A stretch of DNA of 57,796 nucleotides, from positions 1 to 57,796 of the forward strand of contig JAGOAS010000027.1 of NCBI GenBank assembly GCA_017983795.1, read 5' to 3'. The notes beneath the pieces were generated by a model. The model had not been told where the DNA came from. It saw only the letters and a list, made by a program, of their open reading frames with translations, and searched no databases. The position numbers and the translations under genes were made by a program. Shown one piece after another: positions 5,931 to 57,675 of this stretch. Each line of letters begins with the position of its first letter. The stretch's first letter is position 1. This stretch comes from Piscinibacter sp. (GTDB lineage: Bacteria; Pseudomonadota; Gammaproteobacteria; Burkholderiales; Burkholderiaceae_C).

Positions 5931-5936
5931 GCCTTC

Positions 5937-8006: not shown

Positions 8007-8052
8007 GGCGGGCTTCTCGGATGGAGAAGCCGCGATTCTAGGAGTGAGCCCC

Positions 8053-9981
8053 TTAGCGTGCAGCCTGCTGCGATTCGGCGCGGCGGGCCGAGAAACGCTC
8101 GGCCGCCGCCTGGTAGAAGGCGATGCCTTCCTCGAGCGCGTCGTGCTCGCGGGCCTCCTCGCCCTCCTGCTGGCCGGCCAGCGCGATCACCTTGGTGGCG
8201 CGCTTGGGCCGCAGCTCCACCTGCTCGCCGGCGCCGACATAGCCCACCGTCTGGTAGTTGGCCATGAACAGCGACGCCGGCACGTCGCTGTCGTGCAGCA
8301 CGTCGCGGCCGAAGAACTCGGAGACGTAGCGCAGGTCGAGCAGGCCCAGCAGCGTCGGCGCCACGTCGATCTGCGAGGCCAGCGCGTCGACCCTGGCCGG
8401 CTCGACCAGCCCCGGCGCCCACACCACCATGGGGATGTGGAAGCGCTCCATCGGCAGGTCGCTGCGCCCGCGTGCGATCGAGGTGTGGTCGGCCACGAAG
8501 ACGAAGATCGTCTTGCCGAACCAGGGCCGCTCGCGCGCCTTGTCGACGAAGCGGCCGATGGCGTAGTCGGTGTATTTCACCGCGCCGTCGCGGCCGCTGC
8601 CCGAGGGGATGTCGATGCGGCCCTCCGGGTAGGTGAAGGGGCGGTGGTTGGAGGTGGTCATCACGTGCGCGAATACGCGCTTGCCGTCGGCCGCGCGCGC
8701 GTCGATCTCGCGCAGCGCCAGGTCGAACAGGTCCTCGTCGGCCACGCCCCAGATGTTCTCATGGTGGATGTCCTGCTTGTCGATGGCGCGGCGGTCGATC
8801 ACGGTGTAGCCGTTGCCGCCGAAGAAGCTCGCCATGTTGTCGAAATAGCTGTAGCCGCCGTAGATGTAGAGCGACTCCCAGCCTTGCGCCTCGAGCACGC
8901 CGCCGAGCGTGAACAGCCCGCTGTTGTTCGGCCGCATGGGCACGGCGTGGCCGGGCGTGGGCGGCACCGACAGGGTCAGCGCCTCCAGCCCGCGCACGGT
9001 GCGCGTGCCGGTGGCGTACATCTGCGTGAAGAACAGGCCCTCGCGCGCGAGCTGCTCGAGGCGCGGCGTCAGGCCCTTGGCGCCGCCCAGGCTCTCGATG
9101 AACTCGGCGCCCAGGCTCTCGATGGACACCATCACCACGTTCAGATCGCGGCGCGCTCCGCCGGGCAGCACCTCGCGGCGGATCGGCATGTCGGGCGCCG
9201 GCGTGAGCCGGTAGCGCGCCGCGTGGCCGAAGCGCTTGTGCAGGATCGCCTCGACCTTCGCCTGCGGCAGCGTGGCGTAGAAGCGCTGGTAGTCGATCTG
9301 GTTGTAGCGCAGCGCGTGGAAGAACTCCCACACGCCGTTGCCGGCCACCTGCACCAGCTGCGGCTGGCCCAGGCTGTCCTTCCAGCCGGTGGATACACCG
9401 GCGGTGACGGCCACCGCGCCGCCCACGTAGGCCAGCGCGAGCAGCGAGCGGCGCCCGAAGCCGGGCGCCTCGCGCGCCGCCGTGCGGCGCAGCGGCCGCG
9501 CCAGCAGCGCGGCCAGCACCAATGTCGCCGCGGCTATGCCGGCGAACATCGGCCCGAGTGCGTAGGACTCGCGGATGTTGCCCACCACCTCGCGCGTGTA
9601 GACGAGGTAGTCGACGGCGATGAAGTTGAAGCGCGAGGCGAACTCGTTCCAGAACACGAATTCGGAGACGCTCACGAAGATCAGCCCGGCCAGCAGCGCC
9701 GCGCTCAGCAGCAGCGCCACCACGCCGAGCGCGCGGCGCGCCCTCAGTGCCGGCCAGAACCAGCCCAGCAGCACCAGCGGCAGGCACCACCACAGCGCCA
9801 CGGCGAGGTCGTAGCCGAAGCCGAGCGCGAGCGCCGGCGCGAGCCGCAGCGGCTCGAACAACCCGGCATCGGCGTTGAACAGCACCAGCCCGAGCCGCGT
9901 CAGCGTGCTGACGGCCAGGAAGGCGATGAACAGGGGCGCGGCGAGCGCGAGACGGGGGGAGGATTTGTCCAAGACGAGCAC
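8053..9981 (-). CDS. LTA synthase family protein (membrane phosphoglycerol/phosphoethanolamine transferase-like)
   Basis: A 642-residue inner-membrane protein with a GTG start. About five hydrophobic helices occupy the first 190 residues. They are followed by a periplasmic alkaline-phosphatase-superfamily domain with VVMVSIESLGAEF (first metal site), a probable nucleophile Thr in ATGTRTVRG, and VADHTS near the C-terminus (second metal site). In Gram-negative bacteria such proteins modify periplasmic glucans or lipids with phosphoglycerol or related groups rather than making lipoteichoic acid. The acceptor cannot be read here. It is followed by the M3 peptidase gene after a 46-base gap. Confidence 0.85.
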   Translation of the reverse strand: MLVLDKSSPRLALAAPLFIAFLAVSTLTRLGLVLFNADAGLFEPLRLAPALALGFGYDLAVALWWCLPLVLLGWFWPALRARRALGVVALLLSAALLAGLIFVSVSEFVFWNEFASRFNFIAVDYLVYTREVVGNIRESYALGPMFAGIAAATLVLAALLARPLRRTAAREAPGFGRRSLLALAYVGGAVAVTAGVSTGWKDSLGQPQLVQVAGNGVWEFFHALRYNQIDYQRFYATLPQAKVEAILHKRFGHAARYRLTPAPDMPIRREVLPGGARRDLNVVMVSIESLGAEFIESLGGAKGLTPRLEQLAREGLFFTQMYATGTRTVRGLEALTLSVPPTPGHAVPMRPNNSGLFTLGGVLEAQGWESLYIYGGYSYFDNMASFFGGNGYTVIDRRAIDKQDIHHENIWGVADEDLFDLALREIDARAADGKRVFAHVMTTSNHRPFTYPEGRIDIPSGSGRDGAVKYTDYAIGRFVDKARERPWFGKTIFVFVADHTSIARGRSDLPMERFHIPMVVWAPGLVEPARVDALASQIDVAPTLLGLLDLRYVSEFFGRDVLHDSDVPASLFMANYQTVGYVGAGEQVELRPKRATKVIALAGQQEGEEAREHDALEEGIAFYQAAAERFSARRAESQQAAR

Positions 9982-10046
9982 GATGGCGGGCCGGCGCGGC
10001 TGACTCTAGCCGCCCAGACTGAAGTGGAGCTTAGGCGACGCGGGCA

Positions 10047-10526
10047 TTACTTCTCCTTGCGGATCGCCTCGAGGTCGCCCTGGTCGAAACGTCGATTGTC
10101 GCAGCGCTGGCGGAAGGCGGCACGATCCGCATCGAGCGCGCCGACCCGGGCGTTGAAGGCGTCGCTGCGGGCCCCGAAGGCTTCGATCGCCTGGTCGCGC
10201 GCCTTGGCGCGGGCGACGTGCGCCTCGATCGCCTCGACATTGGTGCGATCCAGCGCTTCCAGCTCGGCCTTGAGCACCTCGCCCTGGCGCACCAGCTCGG
10301 CCTTCTCGCCTTCGAGCTGGCCACGCTCGCTGGCCATGCCGTCGGAAGCCCTCACCACGCGCGACTCGATCGCCAGGCACTCGCGCAGCTCGGTCTTGCT
10401 CAGCAGCGGGCCGCTGCCCTTGCCGCTGCCGCTGCCGAATACGCCGATGCGCAGCTTCTCGTTGGCGGCATGGGCGGTGCTCAGGGCGACGACCAGGGTG
10501 AGCAGGCAGGCGGCGGGGCGGATCAT
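10047..10526 (-). CDS. exported coiled-coil protein of unknown function
   Basis: A 159-residue protein with a clear signal peptide (MIRPAACLLTLVVALSTAHA, cleavage after AHA). A short Gly/Ser/Lys-rich linker (GSGSGKGSGPLL) follows. Residues about 55-140 are dense in Glu, Ala, Arg and Leu and look like a long helical coiled coil. Two cysteines (in ELRECL and FRQRCDNR) could form a disulfide. I do not recognise a family. It is probably periplasmic. It lies between the divergent Gfo/Idh/MocA gene and the membrane sulfatase-fold gene. Confidence 0.75.
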   Translation of the reverse strand: MIRPAACLLTLVVALSTAHAANEKLRIGVFGSGSGKGSGPLLSKTELRECLAIESRVVRASDGMASERGQLEGEKAELVRQGEVLKAELEALDRTNVEAIEAHVARAKARDQAIEAFGARSDAFNARVGALDADRAAFRQRCDNRRFDQGDLEAIRKEK

Positions 10527-10615
10527 GGGCGGTTCGAGCGGGTCGGATCAGGCCGCGCATGATGCCATCGGCGCACGCGTCCACAATCGGGGGCCTTCCC
10601 CGCCCTGAGCGCACG

Positions 10616-11704
10616 ATGACCCCCTCCGCCCTGCGCGTCGGCCTGATCGGCTACGGCTACGCCGGCAAGACCTTCCACGCGCCGCTGATCGCCGGCGTGC
10701 CCGGGCTGGTGCTGGCCGCGGTGGCCAGCCGCGACGCGGCGCGCGTGCACGCCGACTGGCCCCAAGCCGAGGTGCTGGCCGACCCCCAGGCGCTGCTGCG
10801 CCGCGCCGACCTCGACCTGGTGGTGATCGCCAGCCCGAACGACAGCCACTTTCCGCTCGCCCGCGCGGCGCTGGCCGAGGGCCGCCACGTGGTGGTCGAC
10901 AAGCCCTTCACGCTCACGCTGGCCGAGGCGCGCGAGCTCGGCGCGCTGGCACGCGCACGCGGCCGGGTGCTCGCGGTGTTCCACAACCGGCGCTGGGACG
11001 GCGATTTCCTGACCCTGCGCGAACTGGTCGAGCGCGGCACGCTGGGCCGCATCGCCCATCTCGAATCGGCCTTCGATCGCTTCCGGCCGACGGTGCGCGC
11101 GCGCTGGCGCGAATCGGCCGCGCCCGGCGCCGGGCTGTGGTTCGACCTCGGCCCGCACCTGCTCGACCAGGCGCTGCAGCTGTTCGGCTGGCCCGACAGC
11201 ATCAGGCTCGATGCGGCCACGCTGCGCGACGGCGGCCTGGCCGACGACTGGTTCCAGGCGCTTCTGACCTGGCCGCAGCGCCGCGCCGTGCTGCGCGCCA
11301 GCATGCTGGCCGCCGCGCCGGCGCCGCGCTTCGCGGTGCACGGCACGGGCGGCTCCTGGCTCAAGTGGGGGCTGGATCCGCAGGAAGACGCGCTCAAGGC
11401 CGGCGCGCGCCCGAGCTGGCCGCCGCCGGCGGGCTGGGGCGTCGATGCGAACGAGAGCCGCCTCACCCGCCCCGCGGGCGAGGCATTGCAGAGCGAACCC
11501 TGGCCGCTGCAGCGCGGCTGCCAGGGCGCCTTCTACGCCGCGCTGCGCGACGCGCTGCGCGGGCAAGGCGCCAACCCGGTGCCACCCGAGCAGGCCATCG
11601 CCGTGATGGCGCTCATCGAACTCGGCCAGCGCAGCGCGCGCGAGGGCCGCACGCTGGAGGCGGGCCGCATGCCCGGGCTGGCCGAGCCGGCCGAGAAGCG
11701 CTGA
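10616..11704 (+). CDS. Gfo/Idh/MocA family oxidoreductase
   Basis: A 362-residue NAD(P)-dependent oxidoreductase. The Rossmann start VGLIGYGYAGKTFHAPLI is followed by VIASPNDSHF and the EKP-equivalent VVDKPFTLTLAEA; the C-terminal part includes GLWFDLGPHLLDQAL. This pattern matches the YvaA/YdgJ-type branch that oxidises or reduces sugars and cyclitols such as scyllo-inositol. The ATG at 10616 was chosen because the motif begins within ten residues; an upstream in-frame ATG at 10559 would add 19 unlikely residues overlapping the divergent promoter region. It is a single gene convergent with the K+ channel gene. Confidence 0.9.
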   Translation: MTPSALRVGLIGYGYAGKTFHAPLIAGVPGLVLAAVASRDAARVHADWPQAEVLADPQALLRRADLDLVVIASPNDSHFPLARAALAEGRHVVVDKPFTLTLAEARELGALARARGRVLAVFHNRRWDGDFLTLRELVERGTLGRIAHLESAFDRFRPTVRARWRESAAPGAGLWFDLGPHLLDQALQLFGWPDSIRLDAATLRDGGLADDWFQALLTWPQRRAVLRASMLAAAPAPRFAVHGTGGSWLKWGLDPQEDALKAGARPSWPPPAGWGVDANESRLTRPAGEALQSEPWPLQRGCQGAFYAALRDALRGQGANPVPPEQAIAVMALIELGQRSAREGRTLEAGRMPGLAEPAEKR

Positions 11705-46222: not shown

Positions 46223-47011
46223 TCAGAAGGTGCCCGGGTAAGCGCCGCCGTCGAGCAGGATGTTCTGCCCGGTGAGGTAGGCCGCCTGCGCGCTGCACAG
46301 GAAGGCGCAGAAGGCGCCGAACTCGTCGGCACGGCCCATGCGCTGCGCGGGAATGCCGGCACGGCGCTTGTCGATCATCGCCTCCACGCTCTGCCCGCTC
46401 TTGGCGGCGGCCGCCTGCATGGTGCTGCGGATGCGGTCGGTGTCGAACCAGCCGGGCAGCAGGTTGTTGATCGTCACGTTGGCCGAGGCCAGGCGCGGCT
46501 GGCGCGCCAGGCCGGCGACGAAGCCGGTGAGGCCGCTGCGCGCGCCGTTCGAGAGCCCCAGCACGTCGATCGGCGCCTTCACCGCGCCCGAGGTGATGTT
46601 GACCACGCGGCCGAAGCCGCGCTCGGCCATCTTGTCCACCGTGGCCTTGATCAGCTCGATGGGCGTGAGCATGTTGGCGTCGAGCGCCTTCAGCCAGGCC
46701 TCGCGGTCCCAGTCGCGGAAGTCGCCGGGCGGCGGGCCGCCGGCGTTGTTGACGAGGATGTCGACCTGCGGGCAGGCAGCAAGCCCTGCGGCGCGGCCTG
46801 CGGGCGTGGCGATGTCGCCCGGCACGGCGATCACCTGCACGCCCGGGTGCGCGGCCCGGATCTCGGCCGCCGTCGCCTCCAGCGTCTCGGCACCCCGCGC
46901 CGTGATCACCACGTTGACGCCCTCGCCGGCCAGCGCCATGGCGCAGCCACGGCCCAAGCCTTTGCTGGCCGCGCACACCAGTGCCCAGCGTCCTGCGATG
47001 CCCAGATCCAT
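46223..47011 (-). CDS. SDR family protein lacking the canonical YxxxK pair
   Basis: A 262-residue Rossmann protein. The cofactor motif VCAASKGLGRGCA and the NNAG motif (VDILVNNAGGPPPG) are intact, as is the serine region NITSGAVKAP. Where the catalytic Tyr-x-x-x-Lys normally lies, the sequence reads GLSNGARSG: Leu153 replaces Tyr and Ala157 replaces Lys. This subgroup is known as atypical SDRs of uncertain activity. It lies between two EamA transporters and 16 bases downstream of the second one, so the two leftward genes may form an operon. Confidence 0.85.
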   Translation of the reverse strand: MDLGIAGRWALVCAASKGLGRGCAMALAGEGVNVVITARGAETLEATAAEIRAAHPGVQVIAVPGDIATPAGRAAGLAACPQVDILVNNAGGPPPGDFRDWDREAWLKALDANMLTPIELIKATVDKMAERGFGRVVNITSGAVKAPIDVLGLSNGARSGLTGFVAGLARQPRLASANVTINNLLPGWFDTDRIRSTMQAAAAKSGQSVEAMIDKRRAGIPAQRMGRADEFGAFCAFLCSAQAAYLTGQNILLDGGAYPGTF

Positions 47012-47027
47012 GTGATGTTCTCCTTGT

Positions 47028-47945
47028 CTATCGCCAACGCGCCAGCAGCCACACGCCGGCCAGCACCAGCACCGTGCCGGCCGCCACCCACACCGTGAAG
47101 GGCTCGCCGAGCAGCAGCACGCCCATCAGGATGGTCGACATCGGGCCCAGCATGCCGGTCTGCGCGGCCAGCGTGGAGCCGATGCGCTCGATCGCCATTA
47201 TCACCATCAGCACCGGCGCGAAGGTGCACAGCGTGGCGTTCAGCACCGACAGCCAGATCACCTCGGGCGCCACCGTCGTCGCCGCCGCGATCGGCCGCAG
47301 CACGAGGAACTGCACGATGCACAGCACGCAGGCCACGCTGGTGGCCAGGCCGGTGAGGCGCATCGAGCCGAGGCGCTTGACCTCCTCGCCGCTGTAGACG
47401 AGATAGACCGCATAGCTGAGCGCGCTGCCGAATACCAGCGCGGCGCCCAGCGCCACGTCGGCGCCGGCGAACTGCAGTTCGTGGCCGAACACCAGCAGCA
47501 CGCCGCTGTAGCTCACCGCCATGGCGGTGAGCTGCTTCGCGCTGGCGCGCCGCCCGAACAGCAGCCAGCCGAGCCCCAGCACGAGGGTCGGGTTGAGATA
47601 GAGAACGAGGCGCTCGAAGCTGGCCGTCACGTAGGCCAGGCCCGCAAAATCGAGAAAGCTCGCGAGGTAGTAGCCGCTGAACCCAAGCCCGAGGATGACC
47701 AGAGCGTCGCGCCGCGTCAGCGCCGGCTTGCCGCGCCCCGCCCACCAGGCCAGCGCCACGAACAGCGGCAGCGCGAACAGCATGCGGAACATGATGAGCG
47801 TGACCGCATCGACGCCGTGCCGATAGGCCAGCTTGACGATGATGGCCTTGCCCGAGAAGGCGATCGCACCGAAGGTGGCGAGCGCGAGGCCCGGCAGCAC
47901 CGAAGGCGTCGGCGTGTCGGCAGCGGCAGCGGCGGGCGAACTCAT
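47028..47945 (-). CDS. EamA/DMT family transporter
   Basis: A 305-residue ten-helix DMT protein. The first half has LALATFGAIAFSGKAIIVKLAYR, and the middle has LYLNPTLVLGLGWLLFGRRASAKQL; the second half begins VALGAALVFGSALSYAVYLVYSGE. Helix pattern and length are normal for EamA. The ATG at 47945 is preferred; the 17 residues that precede it in frame are basic and unlikely. It sits 51 bases downstream of the RidA-like gene in the same direction, so it could be the distal part of the anthranilate operon and carry a pathway substrate. Confidence 0.87.
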   Translation of the reverse strand: MSSPAAAAADTPTPSVLPGLALATFGAIAFSGKAIIVKLAYRHGVDAVTLIMFRMLFALPLFVALAWWAGRGKPALTRRDALVILGLGFSGYYLASFLDFAGLAYVTASFERLVLYLNPTLVLGLGWLLFGRRASAKQLTAMAVSYSGVLLVFGHELQFAGADVALGAALVFGSALSYAVYLVYSGEEVKRLGSMRLTGLATSVACVLCIVQFLVLRPIAAATTVAPEVIWLSVLNATLCTFAPVLMVIMAIERIGSTLAAQTGMLGPMSTILMGVLLLGEPFTVWVAAGTVLVLAGVWLLARWR

Positions 47946-47996
47946 GGCCCGCGGAATTCTAAGGATCACGACCCGGCCTCGCGGCCGGGGGGCCAT

Positions 47997-48392
47997 TCAT
48001 CGAGGGACGACGGCGGTGACTTCTATTTCCACCTTGGCGCGCTCTTCCATCAACGCCTTCACCTCGACGGCACTCATCGCCGCGTGGTAGACGCCGATCA
48101 GTTCGCGGAATACCGCGCCGACCTCGCGGCCGCGCGCCAGGTATTCGCGCTTGTCGGTCAGGTACCAGGTCATGCGCACGATGTGCTCGGGCCGCGCGCC
48201 GGCCTCGGCCAGCACGGCGACGATGTTGGCCAGCGCCTGGCGCGTCTGCGCGACGAAGTCGTCGCTGTCGAAGCGGCACGCGGCGTTCCAGCCGATCTGG
48301 CCGGCCACGAATACCAGCCGGCCCTCGGCAGCCACGCCGTTGACGTAGCCCTTGGGCTTCTCCCAGCCCGGGGGTTGCAGCACCTGCATCAT
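47997..48392 (-). CDS. RidA-like protein of the 2-aminobenzoyl-CoA operon
   Basis: A 131-residue YjgF/RidA-fold protein: the N-terminal strand GRLVFVAGQIGW, then FVAQTRQALANIVAVLAEAGA, IVRMTWYLTD and the C-terminal AKVEIEVTAVVPR. In archetypal RidA an arginine in A-R-S-C-V-E-V binds the substrate carboxylate; here the same place reads AAMSAVEV, with Met106 instead of Arg. The start ATG overlaps the ligase stop (ATGA). Being last in an operon that makes a cyclic 2-amino-enoyl-CoA, hydrolysis of that enamine with release of ammonia is a plausible job; a CoA ester would not need the carboxylate-binding Arg. This role is inferred. Confidence 0.88.
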   Translation of the reverse strand: MMQVLQPPGWEKPKGYVNGVAAEGRLVFVAGQIGWNAACRFDSDDFVAQTRQALANIVAVLAEAGARPEHIVRMTWYLTDKREYLARGREVGAVFRELIGVYHAAMSAVEVKALMEERAKVEIEVTAVVPR

Positions 48393-49999
48393 GGGGCTTG
48401 CCTCAGCTTGAAGCGTTGCAGCTTGCCGGTCTCGGTGCGCGGCAGCGAGCTGCGGAACTCGACCGCACGCGGGTATTTGTAGGGCGCGATGGTCTTCTTG
48501 ACGAACTCCTGCAGCTCGCGCGCCAGCGCCTCGTCGGGTTCGTGGCCCGGCTTGGGCACGACGAAGGCCTTGACGATCTGGCCGCGCTCCGCATCGGCCA
48601 CGCCGATCACGCCGCACTCGGCCACCTTGGGGTGCAGCAGCAGCGCGCTCTCCACCTCGGGGCCGGCGATGTTGTAGCCGCCGCTGACGATCATGTCGTC
48701 GGTGCGCGCCTGGTAGACGAAATAGCCGTCGGCGTCGATCAGGTAGGCATCGCCGGTGAGGTTCCAACCGTTCTGTACATAGTTGCGCTGCCGCTCGTCC
48801 GCGAGGTAGCGGCAGCCGGTCGGGCCTTTCACCGCCAGATGACCGACCTTGCCGCGCGGCAGCTCGCGGCCCTCGTCGTCGAGCACGCAGGCCACGTAGC
48901 CCGGCACGGCCGTGCCGGTGGCGCCCGGCTTCGCATGCGCCTCGTCGTGAGAGATGAAGATGTGCAGCAGCTCGGTGGAGCCGATGCCGTCGATCATCTC
49001 GATGCCGCTGGCCTGCTTCCACAGCGCTCGCGTCGGCGCCGGCAGCGCCTCGCCGGCGCTGACGCATTTCTTCAGCGAAGACAGATCGTGGCCCGCGAGC
49101 AGCCCGGCCATCGCGCGGTAGGAAGTCGGCGCGGTGAAGAGAATCGTCGCGCGGTATTGCGCGATCGCCGCCGGCAGCACGTCGGGCGAGGCCTTCTCCA
49201 GCAGCACGGTGGAAGCGCCCACCGAGAGCGGGAACAGCAGCAGCCCGCCCAGCCCGAAGGTAAAGGCCAGCGGCGGGCTGCCGATGAACACGTCGTCGTG
49301 CGTGGGCCGCAGCACGTGGCGCGGCCAGGTGGCGCAGGCGGCCATCACGTCACGGTGGAAGTGCATCGTGCCCTTGGGCTGGCCGGTGGTGCCCGAGGTG
49401 AAGGCGATGATGCAGGTGTCGTCCTTCGAGGTCTTCACGTTCTCGAAGCTGGCCGGCTTGGCGGCGGCGCGGGCGTCGAGTTCGCCGGGCTCGTTCGTGT
49501 TGAAGTGCAGCAGCTTCGTGAGCGTCGGGCACGCGGGCCGCGCCAGCGCCAGTTCCTCGGCGAGGCGCGCATCGCACAGCGCATGCGTGACCTCGGCCTT
49601 GGTGGCGATCTGGGTCAGCTCCTTGGCGCGCAGCAGCGGCATGCTGCCGACCGCGATGCCGCCTGCCTTGACCACCGCGAACCAGCAGGCAGCCAGCATC
49701 GGCGAGTTGGCGCCGCGCAGCAGCACGCGGTTGCCGGGCACGAGGCCGAGGTCATCGACCAACACGCGCGCGATGCGATTCGCCTGGGCCTGCAAATCGG
49801 CATACGTCCAGCGCACACCGCCGCCCTGCACGCACGGGCGATCGCCCAAGCCGCGCTCGACCCAGCGATCGAGCAGCTCGGTGGCGCAGTTCAGTTGCTC
49901 GGGGAAGCACAGCTGCGGGCCGTCGAACAGGAACTCCGGCCACTGCTCGCGCGGCGGCAGGTTGCGCGCGGCGAAGGTGTCCACATGCGCACTGACCAT
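48389..49999 (-). CDS. 2-aminobenzoate--CoA ligase (benzoate-CoA ligase family)
   Basis: A 536-residue adenylate-forming enzyme of the aryl-CoA ligase branch. Motifs are IAFTSGTTGQPKGTMHFHRDV, GIGSTELLHIFIS, NLTGDAYLIDADGYFVYQARTDDMI, and the catalytic lysine in RTETGKLQRFKLRQ. The N-terminus (LPPREQWPEFLFDGPQL and LNCATELLDRW) matches 2-aminobenzoate-CoA ligases. It would make 2-aminobenzoyl-CoA from anthranilate, ATP and CoA. It begins two bases after the acyl-CoA dehydrogenase stop and overlaps the RidA-like start. The substrate is supported by the adjacent kynureninase, which produces anthranilate. Confidence 0.9.
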   Translation of the reverse strand: MVSAHVDTFAARNLPPREQWPEFLFDGPQLCFPEQLNCATELLDRWVERGLGDRPCVQGGGVRWTYADLQAQANRIARVLVDDLGLVPGNRVLLRGANSPMLAACWFAVVKAGGIAVGSMPLLRAKELTQIATKAEVTHALCDARLAEELALARPACPTLTKLLHFNTNEPGELDARAAAKPASFENVKTSKDDTCIIAFTSGTTGQPKGTMHFHRDVMAACATWPRHVLRPTHDDVFIGSPPLAFTFGLGGLLLFPLSVGASTVLLEKASPDVLPAAIAQYRATILFTAPTSYRAMAGLLAGHDLSSLKKCVSAGEALPAPTRALWKQASGIEMIDGIGSTELLHIFISHDEAHAKPGATGTAVPGYVACVLDDEGRELPRGKVGHLAVKGPTGCRYLADERQRNYVQNGWNLTGDAYLIDADGYFVYQARTDDMIVSGGYNIAGPEVESALLLHPKVAECGVIGVADAERGQIVKAFVVPKPGHEPDEALARELQEFVKKTIAPYKYPRAVEFRSSLPRTETGKLQRFKLRQAP

Positions 50000-50000
50000 G

Positions 50001-51161
50001 TCACGCCTCCTTGAGCAGATCGCGGCCGATGATGAGTTGCTGCACTTCGGTCGCCCCCTCGTAGATGCGCAGCGCGCGAATCTCGCGGTAGAGCGATTCG
50101 ACGGTGTTGCCGTGCACCACGCCGGCCCCGCCCCACAGCTGCACGGCCGCGTCGATCAGCTGCTGCGCGCCTTCGGTGGAAAACATCTTGGCCATCGCCG
50201 CCTCGCGCGTCACGCCCTGTCCCTGGTCGCGCTGCCAGGCGGCGCGGTAGGTGAGCAGCGCGGCACTGTCGATGGTGGTCGCCATCTGCGCGAGCTTGGC
50301 CTGGGTGAGCTGGAAGTCGGCCAGGCGCTGGCCGAACATCTCGCGCGACCGCGCGCGCTCCAGCCCTTCGTGCAGCGCACGCCGGCCGAAGCCCAGCGCG
50401 GCCGCGGCCACCGAGGTGCGGAAGACGTCCAGCGTGCGCATCGCGATCTTGAAGCCTTCGCCCGGCTCGCCGAGGCGATTCGCCTTGGGCACGCGGCAGC
50501 CCTCGAAGCGCAGCCGCGCCAGCGGGTGCGGCGCGATCACGTCGATCCGCTCCGCGATCTCGAAGCCCGGCGTGCCGGCTTCGACCACGAAGGCGCTGAT
50601 GCCGCGGCTGCCCGGCTGTTCGCCCGTGCGCGCGAACAGCACGTAGAGGTCGGCGATGCCGCCGTTGCTGATCCAGGTCTTCTCGCCGTCGATCACATAG
50701 ACGTCGCCGTCGTCGCGTGCCGCGCAGCGCATCGCCGCGACGTCGGAGCCGGCCTCGGGCTCGGAGAGCGCGAAGGCCGCCAGCGCCGCCCCCTCGGCCA
50801 CGCGCGGCAGGAAGCGCTGCCGCTGCGCATGCGTGCCGGCCAGCGAGATCGCGCCCGAGCCCAGGCCCTGCATCGCGAAGGCGAAATCCGCCAGGCCGTG
50901 GTGGAAGGCGAGCGTCTCGCGCAGCAGGCAGATCGCGCGCGTGTCGATCACTTCGGCGGCGCCGCCGTAGGCCGTGCCCGCCACCGCATGGCGCAGCCAG
51001 CCGGCCGCGCCGAGCGTGCGCACCAGCGAGCGGCATTGCGCGTCGACGTCGGTCTCGTGGCCGGCATGCGCCAGGTGCTGCGCCGCCCACGCGCCCAGGT
51101 GCGCGGCCAGTTCACGATGGCGGTCCTCGAAGAACGGCCAGGCGAGGTGCTCGTGCTTCAT
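50001..51161 (-). CDS. acyl-CoA dehydrogenase of the 2-aminobenzoyl-CoA operon
   Basis: A 386-residue ACAD with all canonical parts: [15 protein letters not shown] (FAD/acyl site), [19 protein letters not shown] and the catalytic Glu in [18 protein letters not shown]. It probably oxidises an intermediate of the alicyclic/ring-opened part of the pathway. It is embedded in the operon one base behind the crotonase stop. Homologues occur in the same position in known 2-aminobenzoyl-CoA clusters; its exact acyl-CoA substrate is not known from sequence. Confidence 0.9.
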
Positions 51162-51162
51162 C

Positions 51163-52014
51163 TCAATCGCCCTCGAAGACTGGCTTCTGCTTGGCGACGA
51201 AGGCGTGATAGGCGCGCTGAAAGTCCTGCGTCATCATGCAGATCGCCTGCGCCTGCGCCTCGGATTCGATCGCCTCGTCCACGCCCATGGACCACTCCTG
51301 GTGCAGCATGCGCTTGGTCATCGCGTGGCCGAAGCTGGGCCCGGAGGCGAGTTCGGCGGCCCAGGCGATCGCCTCGGCGCCCACGGCCTCGGGCTCGGCG
51401 AGCCGGTTGTAGAAGCCCCAGGCCAACGCCTCCTCGCCGGGCAGCGCGCGGCCGGTGTAGAGCAGCTCGGAAGCGCGGCCCTGGCCGACGATGCGCGGCA
51501 GCATCGCGCAGGCGCCCATGTCGCAGCCGGCCAGGCCGACGCGCGTGAAGAGAAACGCCACCTTGCTGCGCGCCGTGCCGACGCGCAGGTCGGACGCCAT
51601 CGCGACGATCGCACCGGCGCCGGCGCAGACGCCGTCGATCGCGGCGACGATGGGCTGGCCGCAGGCGCGCATCGCCTTGACCAGATCGCCGGTCATGCGC
51701 GTGAAGGCGAGCAGGTCGGGCATCGGCATCGCCACCAGCGGGCCGATGATCTCGTGCACGTCGCCGCCGGAGCAGAAGTTGCCGCCCTCGCCCTGCACCA
51801 CCACGGCACGCACGTCGTCGGCATAAGCGAGCGTGCGGAACAGATCGCGCAGCTCGGCGTAGGAATCGAAGGTCAGCGGGTTCTTGCGCTCCGGCCGGTT
51901 CAGCGTGATCACGCCGACGCGGCCCTCGACGCGCCAGCCGAAGTGGGCAGGCTTCAGATCGGCCGTCGTGCGGCGGTTGCCGCCCGAAAGATGCGAGCTC
52001 ATCGCGCGGGTCAT
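51163..52014 (-). CDS. crotonase-fold enoyl-CoA hydratase/isomerase-like protein
   Basis: A 283-residue crotonase. It has [18 protein letters not shown], the first oxyanion strand [14 protein letters not shown] and the second [17 protein letters not shown]. By eye alignment the two catalytic glutamates of enoyl-CoA hydratase are replaced (Ile136 and Phe156). An Asp165 in [17 protein letters not shown] occupies a place close to the catalytic Asp of PaaG/MenB-type isomerases and hydrolases. A C-C bond cleavage, isomerisation or hydrolysis step after ring reduction is therefore as likely as a hydration. The ATG overlaps the MarR stop (ATGA). Confidence 0.87.
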
Positions 52015-52493
52015 GCGTTCTCCTGGCTGCGGGTGAGGTGCTGCTTGAGCGTGGCGAGCAGGCCGTGCACCTGGTTCTTCTGCGTCGCGTCCCAGCCGTC
52101 GAAGAGCTTGACGATCCAGGCTTCGTGCACGGCAGCCATGCGGCGGAACTGACGCCGGCCCGCGGCGGTGAGGCGCACGCGGAAAGCGCGCCGATCGGTC
52201 GGATGATCCTCACGCACGACCAGCCCCTCGCCCTCGAGCTGATCGACGATGCCCGTGACGTTGCCGCCGGTCACCATCAGCCGCGCCGACAGCTCGCCCA
52301 TGCTCAGCCCTTCGGCCTCGCGGTCCAGCTGCGCCATCAGGTCGAAGCGCGGCAGTGTGGTGCCGAACTCGCTGCGCAGGCGCTGGCGCACGATGTTCTC
52401 GACGCGCGTGGTGCAGGCCAGCATGCGCAGCCACAGCTTGATGGCCTGGTGGTGGTCGTCGGCAACGCGCGATTCGTGGTCGATCACGATCAC
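52011..52493 (-). CDS. MarR family regulator of the anthranilate/kynurenine operons
   Basis: A 160-residue winged-helix regulator. The DNA-binding core is [47 protein letters not shown], with flanking dimerisation helices ([23 protein letters not shown]). The start is taken as GTG 52493, which overlaps the monooxygenase stop (GTGA); GTG 52487 is an alternative. It is inside the operon it most likely represses, with a CoA thioester such as 2-aminobenzoyl-CoA as inferred effector. The palindrome at 54878-54898 is its best candidate operator. Confidence 0.9.
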
Positions 52494-54841
52494 ACCCCTT
52501 GCGCCAGGTTGGCCTGTTCCTGCGCCGACAGGCCGGCGTTCTGCGCGGCGAGTTGTCGTTCGCGCTCCAGGTTGCGCTCCAACTGGTTCTTGCCGGAGAG
52601 GTATTGCACCGGCCAGTCGGCGCCGACGCCGCTGACGTGGCCGATCTTCGCCGCTTCGAGCAGCGTCCAGGCCGGGTTGGCCAGGTGCGGCCGCGCGATC
52701 GCGCACAGGTCGGCGCGGCCGGCGGCGACGATGCTGTTGACGTGGTCGGCCTCGCTGATCGCGCCCACCGCCATGGTCGCGACCCCGAGTTCGTTGCGGA
52801 TCAGGTCGGCGAACGGCGTCTGGTACATGCGGCCGTAGACCGGCTTCTGCTGCTTGCTGACCTGGCCCGAGGACACGTCGATCAGGTCGCAGCCCGCGGC
52901 CTGGAAGGCGCGCGCGATCTCCACCGCATCGGCCGGCGTGTTGCCGCCCGGCACCCAGTCGTGCGCGGAGAGGCGCACCGACATCGGCCTGTCCGCCGGC
53001 CAGGCGGCGCGCATCGCGGTGAACACTTCGAGCGGGAAGCGCAGTCGGTTGGCGAGCGAGCCGCCGCAGTCGTCGCTGCGCTGGTTGGTCAGCGGCGAGA
53101 GAAAGGCCGAGAGCAGGTAGCCGTGCGCGCAGTGCAGTTCCAGCCAGTCGAAGCCTGCTTGCGCGGCGCGCTTGGTGGCGGCGACGAACTCGTCGCGCAC
53201 GCGGTCCATGTCGGCGCGCGTCATCGCCTTGGACCAGGCGCTGACGCCGTCCAGATACTGCTGCGGCGAGGCCGAGAGCAGCGGCCAGTTGCCGGCTTGC
53301 AGCGGCAGGTCTTCGCCCTCCCAGGGCACGCGCGTCGAGCCCTTGGCGCCGGCGTGGCCGAGCTGCATGGCGATCTTCGCGGTGCTGTTGCCATGCACGA
53401 ACGCGACGATGCGTTGCCACGCGGTTTGCTGCTCGTCGTTCCACAGCCCCGGGCAGCCGGGCGTGATGCGCGCATCGGGCGAGGTGCAGGTCATCTCGGC
53501 GAAGACCAGGCCCGCGCCGCCCATCGCGCGTGCGCCCAGGTGCACGAGGTGGTGGTCGCCAGGGATGCCGTTCAGCGCGCTGTACTGCGCCATCGGAGAG
53601 ACGACGACGCGGTTTTTCAGCGTCAGCCCGCGCAGGCGGAAGGGCGTGAACATCGGCGGCACCGCCTCGGCCTTCAACCCGGCCTTGGCCGCCAGCCAGC
53701 CTTCCAGATCGCCGACATAGCCCGCGTCGCGCAGGCGCAGGTTCTCGTGCGAGATGCGCTGCGAGCGCGTCAGCAGTGCGTAGGCGAACTGCTCGGGCTC
53801 GAGCTTGGCGTGGCGCTCCACGTTCTCGAACCACTCGGTGGAGTTGCGCGCCGCGTTCTGGATCTTCAGCACCTCGACGCCACGCAGTTCCTCGTAGCGG
53901 GCCAGCGCAGCCGCAAGGTCGCCGGGCTGCTCGGCGATGCGCTCGGCGAGCGAGATCGCGTCTTCGAAGGCCAGCTTGGTGCCCGAGCCGATCGAGAAGT
54001 GCGCGGTGTGCGCCGCGTCACCCATCAGCACCACCGGCGCGCGGCCGTTGTGGTGCACCCAGCGCTTGCACACCACGCGCGGAAAGCGGATCCACTGCGC
54101 CGAACCGCGCAGGTGCGCCGCGTTGCTCATCAGCGCATGGCCGTCGAGGTACCTGGCGAACAGCTTCTCGCAGAAGGCGATGCCCTCCTCCTTGCTCATC
54201 TGCTCCAGCCCGGCGGCGCGCCACACCTCGTCGGGCGTCTCGACGATGAAGGTCGAGGTGGTTTCGTCGAAGCGGTAGGCATGAGCCTGGAACCAGCCCC
54301 ACTGCGTCTTCTCGAAGGCGAAGGTGAAGGCGTCGAACAGCTTCTTCGTGCCCAGCCAGACGAAGCGGCAGCGGCGCAAATCGATGTCGGGCTGGTAGGT
54401 GGCGGCGTACTTGCTGCGGAAGCGGCTGTTCAGGCCGTCGCAGGCGATGATCAGGTCGGCAGCGACGTCAGCGTCGTCGGGGCACTCGGTCTTGTAGCGG
54501 ATGTCGACGCCGAGCTCGGCGCAGCGCGCCTGCAGGATGTTGAGCAGGCGCATGCGGCCGATGCCGCAGAAGCCATGGCCGGTGGAGCGCAGCGTGCGGC
54601 CCTGGAAGTGGACGTCGATGTCGTCCCAGTGGTTGAAGGCGTCGAGGATCTGGCCGGCGGTCTTGGCATCGGCGCGCCGGAGCGCGCCCAGGGTCTGGTC
54701 GGAGAACACCACGCCCCAGCCGAAGGTGTCGGTCGGTGCGTTGCGCTCGATCACCGTCACCTCGTGGCGCGCATCCTGCAGCTTCATCAGCAGCGCGAAA
54801 TACAGGCCAGCCGGGCCGCCGCCGATGCAGGTGATGCGCAT
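52490..54841 (-). CDS. 2-aminobenzoyl-CoA monooxygenase/reductase-type fusion (bifunctional salicylyl-CoA 5-hydroxylase/oxidoreductase family)
   Basis: A 783-residue fusion. Residues 1-390 form a flavoprotein monooxygenase with the FAD motif [18 protein letters not shown], a DG-type [16 protein letters not shown] and the [25 protein letters not shown] motif. Residues about 400-770 form an old-yellow-enzyme domain with [32 protein letters not shown] and [25 protein letters not shown]. The family hydroxylates an ortho-substituted benzoyl-CoA at C5 and then reduces the ring to a non-aromatic product with NADH. The neighbouring kyn genes favour 2-aminobenzoyl-CoA over salicylyl-CoA. It is the first gene of the leftward operon, with GGAGA seven bases before the ATG. 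Confidence 0.92.
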
Positions 54842-54868
54842 GCCGAAGTCTCCGTCGTTGTGCGCTGC

Positions 54869-54897
54869 ACTTTAGAGCTTGATATTTTAGGTGTCAA
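54869..54897 (-). promoter_or_regulatory. promoter of the leftward 2-aminobenzoyl-CoA operon
   Basis: On the minus strand a consensus -35 TTGACA (54892-54897) is followed after 17 bases by TAAAGT (54869-54874), a 4/6 match to the -10 box. Transcription would start near 54862, giving a leader of about 20 bases with the GGAGA site of the monooxygenase gene. Confidence 0.65.
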
Positions 54898-54898
54898 G
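54878..54898. promoter_or_regulatory. shared operator palindrome between the abm-like and kyn operons
   Basis: CTTGA (54878-54882) and TCAAG (54894-54898) form an inverted repeat with an 11-base centre; extended half-sites are TTGATA on the plus strand and TTGACA on the minus strand. These half-sites are at the same time the -35 boxes of the two divergent promoters. A 21-bp dyad with TTGA half-sites is typical for MarR dimers, and a MarR gene lies in the operon. Confidence 0.65.
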
Positions 54899-54908
54899 CA
54901 TCTAGAAT
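54879..54908 (+). promoter_or_regulatory. promoter of the kynBUA operon
   Basis: -35 TTGATA (54879-54884), an 18-base spacer and -10 TAGAAT (54903-54908) each match the sigma-70 consensus at five of six positions. The expected start point near 54915 is only about three bases before the kynB ATG at 54918, and no Shine-Dalgarno site is present, so the mRNA may be almost leaderless. Confidence 0.65.
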
Positions 54909-54917
54909 CGGCGCATC

Positions 54918-55553
54918 ATGAGTCAGCCGCGCCGCCTCTGGGACATCTCCCCCGTGCTGGGCCCGGCCACGCCGCCCTTCCCCGGCGACCAGGCCTACGA
55001 GCAGCGCTGGACGGCGCGCATCGCCCCCGGCTGCCCGGTCAACCTGAGCGCGATCACGCTCTCGCCGCACCTCGGCGCGCATGCGGATGCACCCTTGCAC
55101 TATGCCGACGGTGCGCCCGCGATCGGCGAGGTTTCGCTGGAGCCCTACCTCGGCCCCTGCCGCGTGATCCACGGGATCGGGCGCGGGCCGCTGGTGAAGC
55201 CGGAGCACCTCGCCCATGCGCTGGAGAAGCTGCCGCCGCGCGTGCTGGTGCGCACCTGCCAGCGCGCGCCAACCGCGTGGTCGGAAGATTTCACCGCCTT
55301 CGCGCCCGAAACCATCGCGCTGCTCGCCGCGCGCGGCGTGAAGCTGGTCGGCATCGACAGCCAATCGGTCGACCCGGCCACCAGCAAGACGCTCGACAGC
55401 CACCACCTGCTGCTCGAGCACGATCTGCGCGTGCTCGAGAACCTGGTGCTCGACGAGGTGCCCGAAGGCGACTACGAACTCATCGCGCTGCCGCTCAAGC
55501 TCGCCCATGCCTGCGCGAGCCCGGTGCGCGCCATCCTCAGAGAACTCTCATGA
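54918..55553 (+). CDS. kynB: arylformamidase (kynurenine formamidase)
   Basis: A 211-residue metal-dependent KynB. The start [22 protein letters not shown] and the metal-binding [14 protein letters not shown] (HxGxHxD) are diagnostic, as is [10 protein letters not shown] and the later [18 protein letters not shown]. It hydrolyses N-formylkynurenine to kynurenine and formate. It is the first gene of kynBUA and is divergent from the 2-aminobenzoyl-CoA operon. Its stop overlaps the kynU ATG (ATGA). Confidence 0.96.
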
Positions 55554-56821
55554 CAAGACAGAACGCCCAGGCGCTCGACGCCCGCGACCCGCTGGCCTCG
55601 CTGCGCACCCAGTTCGCCCTGCCCGAAGGCGTGATCTACCTCGACGGCAACTCGCTGGGCGTGCTGCCCGCCGCCGCGCCGGCGCGCGTGGCGCAGGCGG
55701 TGCAGCAGGAGTGGGGCGAGGGCCTGATCCGCAGCTGGAATACGGCGAACTGGGTGAACCTGCCGCAGCGCGTGGGCGACAAGATCGGCCGCCTGATCGG
55801 CGCGCCGCCGGGCCAGACGCTGGCGGGCGACTCCACCTCGGTAAACCTCTACAAGGTGCTGGCGGCGGCGCTGCTGCTGGCGAAGCAACAGGGCGATCCG
55901 GCGCGGCGCGTGATCGTCTCCGAGCGCAGCAACTTCCCCACCGACCTCTACATCGCCGAGGGCCTGGCGCGCCAGCATGGCTTCGAGCTGAAGCTGGTCG
56001 AGCCGGAGCAGATCGCCGCGCAGTTCGGCCCCTCGCTCGCCGTGTTGATGCTCACCCACGTCAACTACCGCACCGGGCGCATGCACGACATGGCCGCGAT
56101 CACGCGCGCGGCGCACGGCTGCGGCGCACTGGCGCTGTGGGATCTGGCGCATTCGGCCGGCGCCGTGCCGGTGGACCTGAACGGCGCCGATGCCGACTTC
56201 GCCGTCGGCTGCGGCTACAAGTACCTGAACGGCGGCCCCGGCGCACCGGCCTTCCTGTGGGTGCACCCGCGCCATCTCGAGCGCATGGAGCGCGAGGATC
56301 TGTGGCAGCCGCTGTCGGGCTGGTTCGGCCACGCCGCGCCCTTCGAGTTCTCGCCGCACTACCGGCCGGCCAGCGGCATCGCGCGCTTCGCCTGCGGCAC
56401 GCCGCCGGTGCTGGGGCTGACGGCGCTGGAGACCGGCGTCGACACGGCGCTCGCCGCCGAGCCGCTGGGCGGCATGGCGGCGCTGCGCCGCAAGTCGCTC
56501 GCGCTGACCAGCCTGTTCATCACCCTCGTCGAGGCACGCTGCGCGGGGCATGGCCTCACGGTGATCACGCCGCGCACCGAGGGCGAGCGCGGCAGCCAGG
56601 TCAACCTGGCGCGCGGCGAAGGCGCCTATGCCATCGTGCAGGCGCTCATCGCACGTGGCGTGATCGGCGACTTCCGTGCGCCGGATGTGCTGCGCTTCGG
56701 CTTCACGCCGCTGTACACCAGCTTCACCGAAGTGTGGGACGCCGTCGAGCACTTGCGCCAGGTGCTCGAATCCGGCGAATGGAAAGAGGCGCGCTTCAAC
56801 CAGAAGGCAGCCGTGACATGA
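55550..56821 (+). CDS. kynU: kynureninase
   Basis: A 423-residue PLP enzyme. It opens with [29 protein letters not shown]. Typical motifs are [53 protein letters not shown] and the PLP lysine in [16 protein letters not shown]. It cleaves kynurenine to anthranilate and alanine, so it supplies the substrate of the divergent CoA ligase operon. Both ends overlap neighbouring genes by four bases (ATGA), meaning tight translational coupling in kynBUA. Confidence 0.97.
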
Positions 56822-57675
56822 CCTGTCCGCATCACTCCTCCGAGGGCGAGCGCATCGTCGCCGACGAAGGCGCCAAGCTCGACTTCAGCCGCGACATGAG
56901 CTATGGCGACTACCTGCAGCTCGACGCCGTGCTCAACGCGCAGAAGCCGCTCTCGCCCGACCACAACGAGATGCTCTTCATCGTGCAGCACCAGACCAGC
57001 GAGCTGTGGATGAAGCTGATGCTGCACGAGCTCTCGGCCGCGGTGGGCTGCATCGCGCGCGACGAGCTCGGCAGCGCCTTCAAGATGCTGGCGCGCGTCA
57101 GCAAGATCATGGAGCAGCTGGTGCACGCCTGGGACGTGCTGGCCACCATGACGCCGCCGGAATACTCGGCGATCCGGCCCTACCTGAGCAACAGCAGCGG
57201 CTTCCAGAGCTGGCAGTACCGCTGCATCGAGTTCATGCTGGGCAACAAGAACCCGGCGATGCTCAAGCCGCACGCGCACCGGCCGGATCTGCTGGCCAAG
57301 GTGGAAGCGGCGTGGCGCGCGCCCTCGCTGTACGACGAATCGCTGCGCCTGCTGGCGCGGCGTGGCATGGCCGTTCCCTCCGAGTATCTCGAACGCGACT
57401 GGACCCAGCCCTACGCCGCCAGCGACGCCGTGGAGCAGGCCTGGCTCATGGTCTACCGCGACCCAAAGCAGCACTGGGATCTGTACCAGCTCGGCGAAGA
57501 ACTCACCGATCTCGAAGACGCCTTCCGCCTCTGGCGCTTCCGCCACGTCACCACGGTGGAGCGCGTGATCGGCTTCAAGCGCGGCACGGGCGGCACCAGC
57601 GGCGTGGGCTATCTGCGCAAGATGCTCGACACGGTGCTGTTTCCGGAGATCTGGAAGCTGCGGACGGATCTCTGA
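56818..57675 (+). CDS. kynA: tryptophan 2,3-dioxygenase
   Basis: A 285-residue haem dioxygenase. It contains [60 protein letters not shown] and the C-terminal haem-ligand region [30 protein letters not shown]. It converts L-tryptophan and O2 to N-formylkynurenine, the first step of the pathway. The gene comes last in kynBUA and its ATG overlaps the kynU stop. Confidence 0.97.

Follow-up and report, generated by a model that had tools for sequence, protein, structure and literature searches.

The locus at positions 47997 to 57675 of contig JAGOAS010000027.1 of Piscinibacter sp. (GCA_017983795.1) raises the question of whether the breakdown of tryptophan and the coenzyme A (CoA)-dependent degradation of its product anthranilate (2-aminobenzoate) are run there as one regulated pathway. 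The stretch analysed, called the window here, is that whole contig (C8 in our numbering, 57,796 nucleotides), taken from a genome of 4.24 Mb that is 99.73% complete. Two divergent operons are separated in it by a short gap, the kynBUA operon on one side and, on the other, a unit named abm here, with a fused flavoprotein, a MarR-family regulator, a crotonase, an acyl-CoA dehydrogenase, an aryl-CoA ligase and a Rid-family protein. Very probably, the two operons together form a tryptophan-to-central-metabolism unit, in which kynBUA would feed a CoA-thioester route for anthranilate and both operons would be governed by one palindrome bound by the MarR protein. The pathway, the fusion, abm clusters and the kyn genes are already known, and the new elements are the regulatory fusion and the residue patterns described below, by which two of the enzymes seem to depart from their family labels; the abm-kyn pairing itself may already be in print. 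No shared abm-kyn control site is described in the passages of the literature covered, most subscription papers being beyond reach, and the accessible part of a regulation study of 32 Betaproteobacteria mentions neither kyn, nor abm, nor tryptophan.

The limits of the locus are exact, 47997 being the stop of the Rid gene and 57675 that of kynA, which ends 121 bp before the contig end. Leftward from 54841 on the minus strand, the order is fusion, MarR, crotonase, acyl-CoA dehydrogenase, ligase and Rid, with 4-bp overlaps or 1-bp gaps, while rightward from 54918 on the plus strand kynB, kynU and kynA follow one another, neighbours overlapping by 4 bp; the gap between the fusion gene and kynB measures 76 bp (54842-54917). 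The genes named in the initial annotation, their strands, the 783-residue fusion and the 76-bp gap are all found in the open reading frame list and in the NCBIfam and Pfam matches. Three start positions were corrected, kynU to 55550 (4 bp into kynB), MarR to a GTG codon at 52493 (4-bp overlap with the fusion) and Rid to 48392 (4-bp overlap with the ligase), giving the following features:

47997..48392, minus strand: Rid-family protein, 131 residues, with Met at the position of the RidA catalytic Arg; last gene of the conserved abm unit (PF01042, 84 bits; alignment to solved Rid-family chains)
48389..49999, minus strand: putative 2-aminobenzoate (anthranilate)-CoA ligase, 536 residues (AMP-binding domains; 51% identity to the pAL1 ligase)
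50001..51161, minus strand: acyl-CoA dehydrogenase, 386 residues, putative catalytic Glu kept (Pfam Acyl-CoA_dh)
51163..52014, minus strand: crotonase-fold protein, 283 residues, with a PaaG-like Asp and without hydratase-type Glu (PRK08258, 490 bits)
52011..52493, minus strand: MarR-family regulator, 160 residues, GTG start (PF12802/PF01047)
52490..54841, minus strand: probable 2-aminobenzoyl-CoA monooxygenase/reductase fusion, 783 residues (PRK08255, 1372 bits; PF01494 at 5-305, PF00724 at 397-726)
54869..54897, minus strand: predicted abm promoter, TTGACA-17-TAAAGT (consensus scan)
54878..54898, no strand: imperfect palindrome CTTGATATTTTAGGTGTCAAG, predicted MarR operator, with one -35 box per arm (sequence scan and site model)
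54879..54908, plus strand: predicted kynBUA promoter, TTGATA-18-TAGAAT (consensus scan)
54918..55553, plus strand: kynB, kynurenine formamidase, 211 residues (TIGR03035, 288 bits)
55550..56821, plus strand: kynU, kynureninase, 423 residues (PF22580 KYNU_C, 128 bits)
56818..57675, plus strand: kynA, tryptophan 2,3-dioxygenase, 285 residues (TIGR03036, 437 bits)

The curated NCBIfam cut-offs (223 bits for TIGR03035, 391 for TIGR03036, 1078 for PRK08255 and 330 for PRK08258) are all exceeded, and the ligase, dehydrogenase, Rid and MarR proteins score below every NCBIfam cut-off and above the Pfam domain cut-offs. With homologues of kynB, kynU and kynA in a single operon, the rightward unit is of the kynBUA type.

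A consensus scan of a 351-bp stretch returned two promoter-like sites, against 0.1 in shuffled sequences. They stand face to face, and each has its -35 box in one arm of the imperfect palindrome CTTGATATTTTAGGTGTCAAG, whose 8-bp arms differ by one mismatch. Because the kyn -10 box ends 9 nt before the kynB ATG (window 54903-54917), the kynBUA transcript should be near-leaderless; two congeners, compared by eye, have a similar promoter layout, with 9 and 7 nt to the kynB start and a weaker -10 box (TACACT) in the 7-nt case. A MarR-type pattern occurs once in the window against 0.01 expected, and from this arrangement we infer that a single predicted MarR site serves both operons. From the palindrome whose arms form the -35 boxes of both promoters, MarR would repress both transcripts, and anthranilate or 2-aminobenzoyl-CoA, as effector, would release it. 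The proposed coupling of the operons through one control region is supported by the predicted promoter pair and palindrome.

The association of the two operons was followed in 300 genomes sampled across the order and 250 genomes of the family, the statistics ignoring shared ancestry. In the order sample the fusion (at E<=1e-100) is present in 46 and kynA in 58 of the 300 genomes, with both in 27 against 9 expected; in the family sample the figures are 144 and 160 of 250, with both in 132 against 92 expected (Fisher p 8e-28). Linkage was counted among the matches listed, which give places for both genes in 124 of these 132 genomes, and in 30 of the 124, from 17 genera, kynA is divergent from the fusion at 4 kb or less. 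Five further family genomes show a distance of 6-12 kb, divergent in three, and in another one kynA lies 374 bp upstream of the fusion on the same strand. Since 30 genomes of 17 genera share the divergent placement, the pairing is recurrent, and a peculiarity of the window genome is ruled out. Against our reading, 94 of the 124 genomes have both genes without close divergent pairing. Among 80 named fusion loci, kynBUA is visible in 6, the flank available being shorter than 10 kb in many of them.

In the case of the fusion, one open reading frame joins a flavin adenine dinucleotide (FAD) monooxygenase part (PF01494, residues 5-305) to a flavin mononucleotide (FMN) domain of the old yellow enzyme type, from about residue 397 (PF00724, 397-726), which is the abmA-type composition of a chain of about 780 residues; the solved chains that match it cover only one half each, among the matches listed (60 of 132). 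The nearest named fusion loci belong to a Burkholderiaceae isolate (81% identity), a Proteobacteria metagenome-assembled genome (MAG; 80%), a Methylibium MAG (79%) and two Mitsuaria (78% and 76%). The window ligase is 51% identical to the anthranilate-CoA ligase of the Arthrobacter plasmid pAL1 and 36% to the benzoate-CoA ligase of its own genome, and the window fusion is likewise 51% identical to the pAL1 fusion. According to the accessible part of PMC3534580, the expressed pAL1 ligase gene gave anthranilate-CoA ligase activity, and anthranilate-grown Arthrobacter cells contained anthraniloyl-CoA together with CoA esters of C7H7NO3 and C7H8O4. Judging by gene order, the assayed ligase would be the AMP-binding gene adjoining the fusion. 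Given the likeness to the pAL1 pair, the co-occurrence of fusion and kynA and their divergent linkage, 2-aminobenzoyl-CoA is probably the substrate of the fusion. KynA, KynB and KynU convert tryptophan into anthranilate, formate and alanine; the ligase would then turn anthranilate into 2-aminobenzoyl-CoA, and the fusion would hydroxylate and reduce this thioester to 2-amino-5-oxocyclohex-1-ene-carboxyl-CoA, an enamine.

Some fusion genes depart from the usual form or host. In five genomes (G049, G302, G392, G500 and G539) the match is split over two domains in one open frame of 809-1008 residues, and the linker between the domains seems divergent or longer. Fusion genes 65-66% identical to that of the window are found in two MAGs labelled Actinomycetota (L085, L086), by transfer or misbinning, and one of 68% identity in a MAG labelled Thermoflexus hugenholtzii (L070), with no further query gene in the flank examined.

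Other ways of degrading anthranilate were sought in the whole window genome. No anthranilate 1,2-dioxygenase large subunit (TIGR03228) was found at E<=1e-100, weaker Rieske matches lying outside this search, no intradiol dioxygenase (PF00775) at E<=0.001, extradiol dioxygenases not having been searched for, and no 3-hydroxyanthranilate dioxygenase (TIGR03037) at E<=0.001, on which ground a 3-hydroxyanthranilate route was rejected. The absence of anthranilate dioxygenase and catechol genes already noted for the window therefore extends to the genome for these three families at the thresholds used. TIGR03228 at E<=1e-100 is present in 11 of the 300 order genomes (one above the curated cut-off); four of these 11 belong to the 46 fusion-bearing genomes. 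The initial annotation had read the physical fusion of the operons as a sign that a CoA thioester is the sole form in which the cell handles anthranilate; adjacency by itself is insufficient for this, and the better argument is the whole-genome absence of the other routes searched. Together with the ligase likeness and the kyn linkage, it makes the CoA-thioester route the likeliest one here. Gene content is nevertheless not proof of phenotype, and a point to be set against our reading is that C. metallidurans CH34, although abm and kyn genes are listed for it, shows no growth on anthranilate (accessible part of PMC8879955) and is reported unable to use tryptophan (accessible part of PMC2842291).

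What happens to the enamine is a harder question. Our tentative proposal, which we regard as possible rather than probable, is that the Met-type Rid is a dedicated CoA-enamine deaminase, that the crotonase hydrolytically cleaves the ring to 4-oxopimeloyl-CoA, and that one MarR site controls both along with tryptophan breakdown. Classical beta-oxidation of the amino-ring compound, as reportedly proposed for Azoarcus, has a considerable chance of its own, if one somewhat short of even; the crotonase would then be a hydratase and the Rid an accessory protecting enzyme or a bystander. This alternative agrees with a review that, in its accessible part, has beta-oxidation enzymes acting next (PMC4539516), and with the description of RidA proteins as damage-control enzymes in PMC4433059. 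As far as the accessible text of that source goes, imine hydrolysis depends on the RidA Arg (Arg105 in E. coli TdcF), which makes contact with the carboxylate of the substrate, and Rid4-Rid7 lack this residue and are judged most likely not to be imine hydrolases, Trp replacing the Arg in Rid4/Rid7 and the position being variable, with Met allowed, in Rid5/Rid6.

All 65 abm-linked Rid rows, from the window and 64 of the 80 named loci (in 16 loci the flank examined gives no Rid match), have Met at the catalytic-Arg position, with Tyr16, Glu122 and Glu124 invariant. With Met in place of both the conserved Arg and the Trp, the window protein falls outside the RidA imine deaminases and Rid1-3, as well as outside Rid4/Rid7. 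The Rid copies of pAL1, Paracoccus and Deinococcus have Met there too, and this company of Met-type Rid and fusion gene in other phyla speaks against a bystander. A possible reason for the replacement is that an Arg gripping a free carboxylate would be useless on a thioester. Less favourable to a dedicated deaminase is that the same genome has another Met-type Rid, 50% identical to the first, on its contig C28, in the neighbourhood of a benzoate-CoA ligase, where no amine is expected; it rules out that Met is exclusive to abm and, by its position, raises the possibility that Met may mark aryl-CoA pathways generally. The C28 cluster (L146, C28:54000-72000, 5581-11571) encodes a 2-oxoacid:acceptor oxidoreductase, a small protein without NCBIfam match, this second Rid, an ATP-binding cassette (ABC) ATPase and a strong benzoate-CoA ligase (TIGR02262, 801 bits).

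The crotonase lacks both Glu residues of a classical enoyl-CoA hydratase: at positions 136 and 158, which by eye we place at the two catalytic sites, every row has Ile, Met or Leu (73 of 73) and every ungapped row Arg or Lys (72 of 72), respectively, and Asp165 is present in 72 of 72 ungapped rows. This Asp aligns, with one residue inserted, with that of 3hrx and 6sl9, which are presumably T. thermophilus PaaG; PaaG-type isomerases have their active-site Asp in a loop before an LPR motif. The solved relatives include 4fzw_C, the E. coli 1,2-epoxyphenylacetyl-CoA isomerase, and the closest of them, 3g64, has the same Asp and is titled a putative enoyl-CoA hydratase, which lends the beta-oxidation alternative some support. 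In the acyl-CoA dehydrogenase, Glu368, presumably the catalytic residue, is kept in 69 of 69 rows. The C7H8O4-CoA ester bears on the same choice: the authors who reported it suggest cyclohexanedione-carboxyl-CoA and describe cyclohexanedione as a product of hydrolytic deamination and acidic decarboxylation (accessible part of PMC3534580). The ester is possibly the deaminated ring, which speaks against the beta-oxidation alternative.

It is because of the Rid and crotonase residue patterns and this ester that deamination by Rid and ring opening by the crotonase are proposed. Hydrolysis of the enamine by the Rid would give ammonia and 2,5-dioxocyclohexane-carboxyl-CoA, whose ring the PaaG-like crotonase would help to open, to 4-oxopimeloyl-CoA; the acyl-CoA dehydrogenase would then begin the beta-oxidation of the open chain, in which general enzymes with genes outside the unit would take part. 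The substrates, the binding of MarR, its effector and the order of these lower steps are what we infer.

The abm unit of the window has neither a thiolase nor a hydroxyacyl-CoA dehydrogenase. Among the 74 named loci that have a MarR or crotonase match behind the fusion (kyn-linked loci included; a different set from the 74 unlinked loci below), 46 carry a short-chain dehydrogenase/reductase (SDR) gene between the fusion and MarR or the crotonase, one of the 46, L058, on a weak tblastn match. No such gene stands behind the window fusion; the best match in the genome to the abm-linked SDR is 40% identical and located elsewhere, and the SDR of the window itself, at only 29% identity, was rejected as its replacement. 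With the late steps and the abm-linked SDR missing from the unit, calling the locus complete was too strong, so that of the overall interpretation in the initial annotation the gene identities, the route and the coupling stand, whereas completeness and thioester-only handling deduced from adjacency do not. A 2022 survey of catabolic pathways omitted tryptophan degradation via anthraniloyl-CoA for lack of knowledge (accessible part of PMC9007349).

The shared control region can be compared across genomes with an operator model built from 26 linked rows, representing 23 distinct genomes (L035, L038 and L041 are apparently the same as L119, L125 and L126). Of the 74 named loci without kyn linkage, 46 reach a score of at least 8 upstream of the fusion; shuffled sequences do so in 0.3% of cases. 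For kynB, 20 of the 94 genomes without close pairing were taken from the upper part of the ranking, contig-edge cases skipped, and one without a kynB match was left out; a score of at least 8 is reached upstream of kynB in 7 of the remaining 19, against 0.5% of shuffles, and a score of at least 14 in six unlinked genomes, against 0 of 570 shuffles. Near the seven operator-bearing kynB genes there is no abm gene besides a 31% dehydrogenase match (L157) and a 29% SDR match (L173). Being found upstream of unlinked abm and of some unlinked kynB genes, the site appears to belong to abm in the first place and also, in some genomes where the two are not adjacent, to control kyn.

Several counts weigh against a single shared site. 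No operator reaches the threshold in 28 of the 74 unlinked named loci, although in 13 of these the ligase gene stands directly before the fusion, which is therefore not the first gene there, nor in 12 of the 19 unlinked kynB upstream regions; genome-wide, the MarR-type pattern (at most one mismatch) has 1 site, in the gap, and the reversed control pattern 2, so that the single match is not significant by itself. The 12 kynB upstream regions without the site leave some room for the operons being regulated separately within a real pathway, the short gap reflecting genome compaction and the palindrome acting on abm only, as would suit a site that stands upstream of abm where kyn is unlinked. Most linked relatives also keep an element of their own upstream of kynB, TTGGAAnTAACCGACACC, which 16 of 26 linked and 13 of 19 unlinked rows (relatives L120-L140 and L155-L174) carry with no more than one mismatch and which is probably an ordinary kyn promoter or regulator site, and those linked rows whose flank includes kynB have gaps of 131-295 bp. 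In the window's genus, by contrast, the gap is 76, 76 and 72 bp in three genomes and TTGGAAnTAACCGACACC is gone (8-9 mismatches of 17 fixed bases), as it is in L119/L035, L036 and a few unlinked rows. The sole promoter-like boxes found toward kynB begin inside the palindrome, and the abm-type site does occur at the seven unlinked kynB genes mentioned above; separate regulation is on balance unlikely, and common control through the one predicted site is the reading we keep.

One further objection comes from nomenclature, NCBIfam (PRK08255) and public records naming the fusion 'bifunctional salicylyl-CoA 5-hydroxylase/oxidoreductase'. The label is uninformative on substrate because the pAL1 fusion, adjoining an anthranilate-CoA ligase gene, has it too, and in these genomes it is probably misleading. 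That the leftward operon degrades salicylate via salicylyl-CoA and gentisyl-CoA beside kynBUA by accident has little beyond this name, also frequent in plasmid records, to set against the divergent kyn linkage, the identically named pAL1 protein and the resemblance of the window ligase to that of pAL1, and is highly improbable.

Several known systems resemble parts of the locus. The kynBUA operon is established in Burkholderiales and Pseudomonas, with kynB, kynU and kynA in one operon as here; that of the window differs in being divergent from abm and, in its genus, in lacking the common element upstream of kynB. The aerobic 2-aminobenzoate cluster of Azoarcus evansii, the subject of Schuhle et al. 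in 2001, reportedly includes a MarR-like regulator, a 'translation inhibitor' of the Rid family and an ABC-transporter protein gene, the last of which is absent from the window unit, and we know of no description of a divergent kynBUA with a shared control site there. Its ligase, monooxygenase/reductase fusion and beta-oxidation-type enzymes are points of likeness (accessible part of PMC4539516). Arthrobacter Rue61a pAL1 (PMC3534580, accessible part; NC_009453) shares, besides the ligase and the fusion, a Met-type Rid (37%), but has PaaX-type regulators and a quinaldine upper pathway where the window has MarR and kynBUA, and no crotonase or acyl-CoA dehydrogenase gene is annotated alongside. 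The abm operon on a Deinococcus psychrotolerans plasmid (L152, NZ_CP034186) runs fusion, SDR, MarR, crotonase, acyl-CoA dehydrogenase, ligase and, further on, Rid, the shared genes being 48-68% identical; it differs in keeping the SDR, in added cyclase-family and thiamine-diphosphate proteins, the former 27% identical to KynB, and in having no kynBUA alongside. These added proteins hint at another lower route.

Directly behind the Rid gene of the window, an EamA transporter and an SDR gene (46223-47996, minus strand) were considered as members of the core unit and are accessory at most. They are present in one congener (L175) and without a match above 45% identity in another (L176), and across the 80 named loci EamA is never matched behind Rid and an SDR once, at 30% (L072).

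For the lower part of the 2-aminobenzoyl-CoA route, the conserved residue swaps in Rid and crotonase point to specific candidate enzymes and reactions. If true, the Rid step would give a function to an Arg-less Rid protein, a kind judged most likely not to hydrolyse imines. The predicted shared operator, for its part, hints at a way in which two pathways that were once separate came under common regulation.

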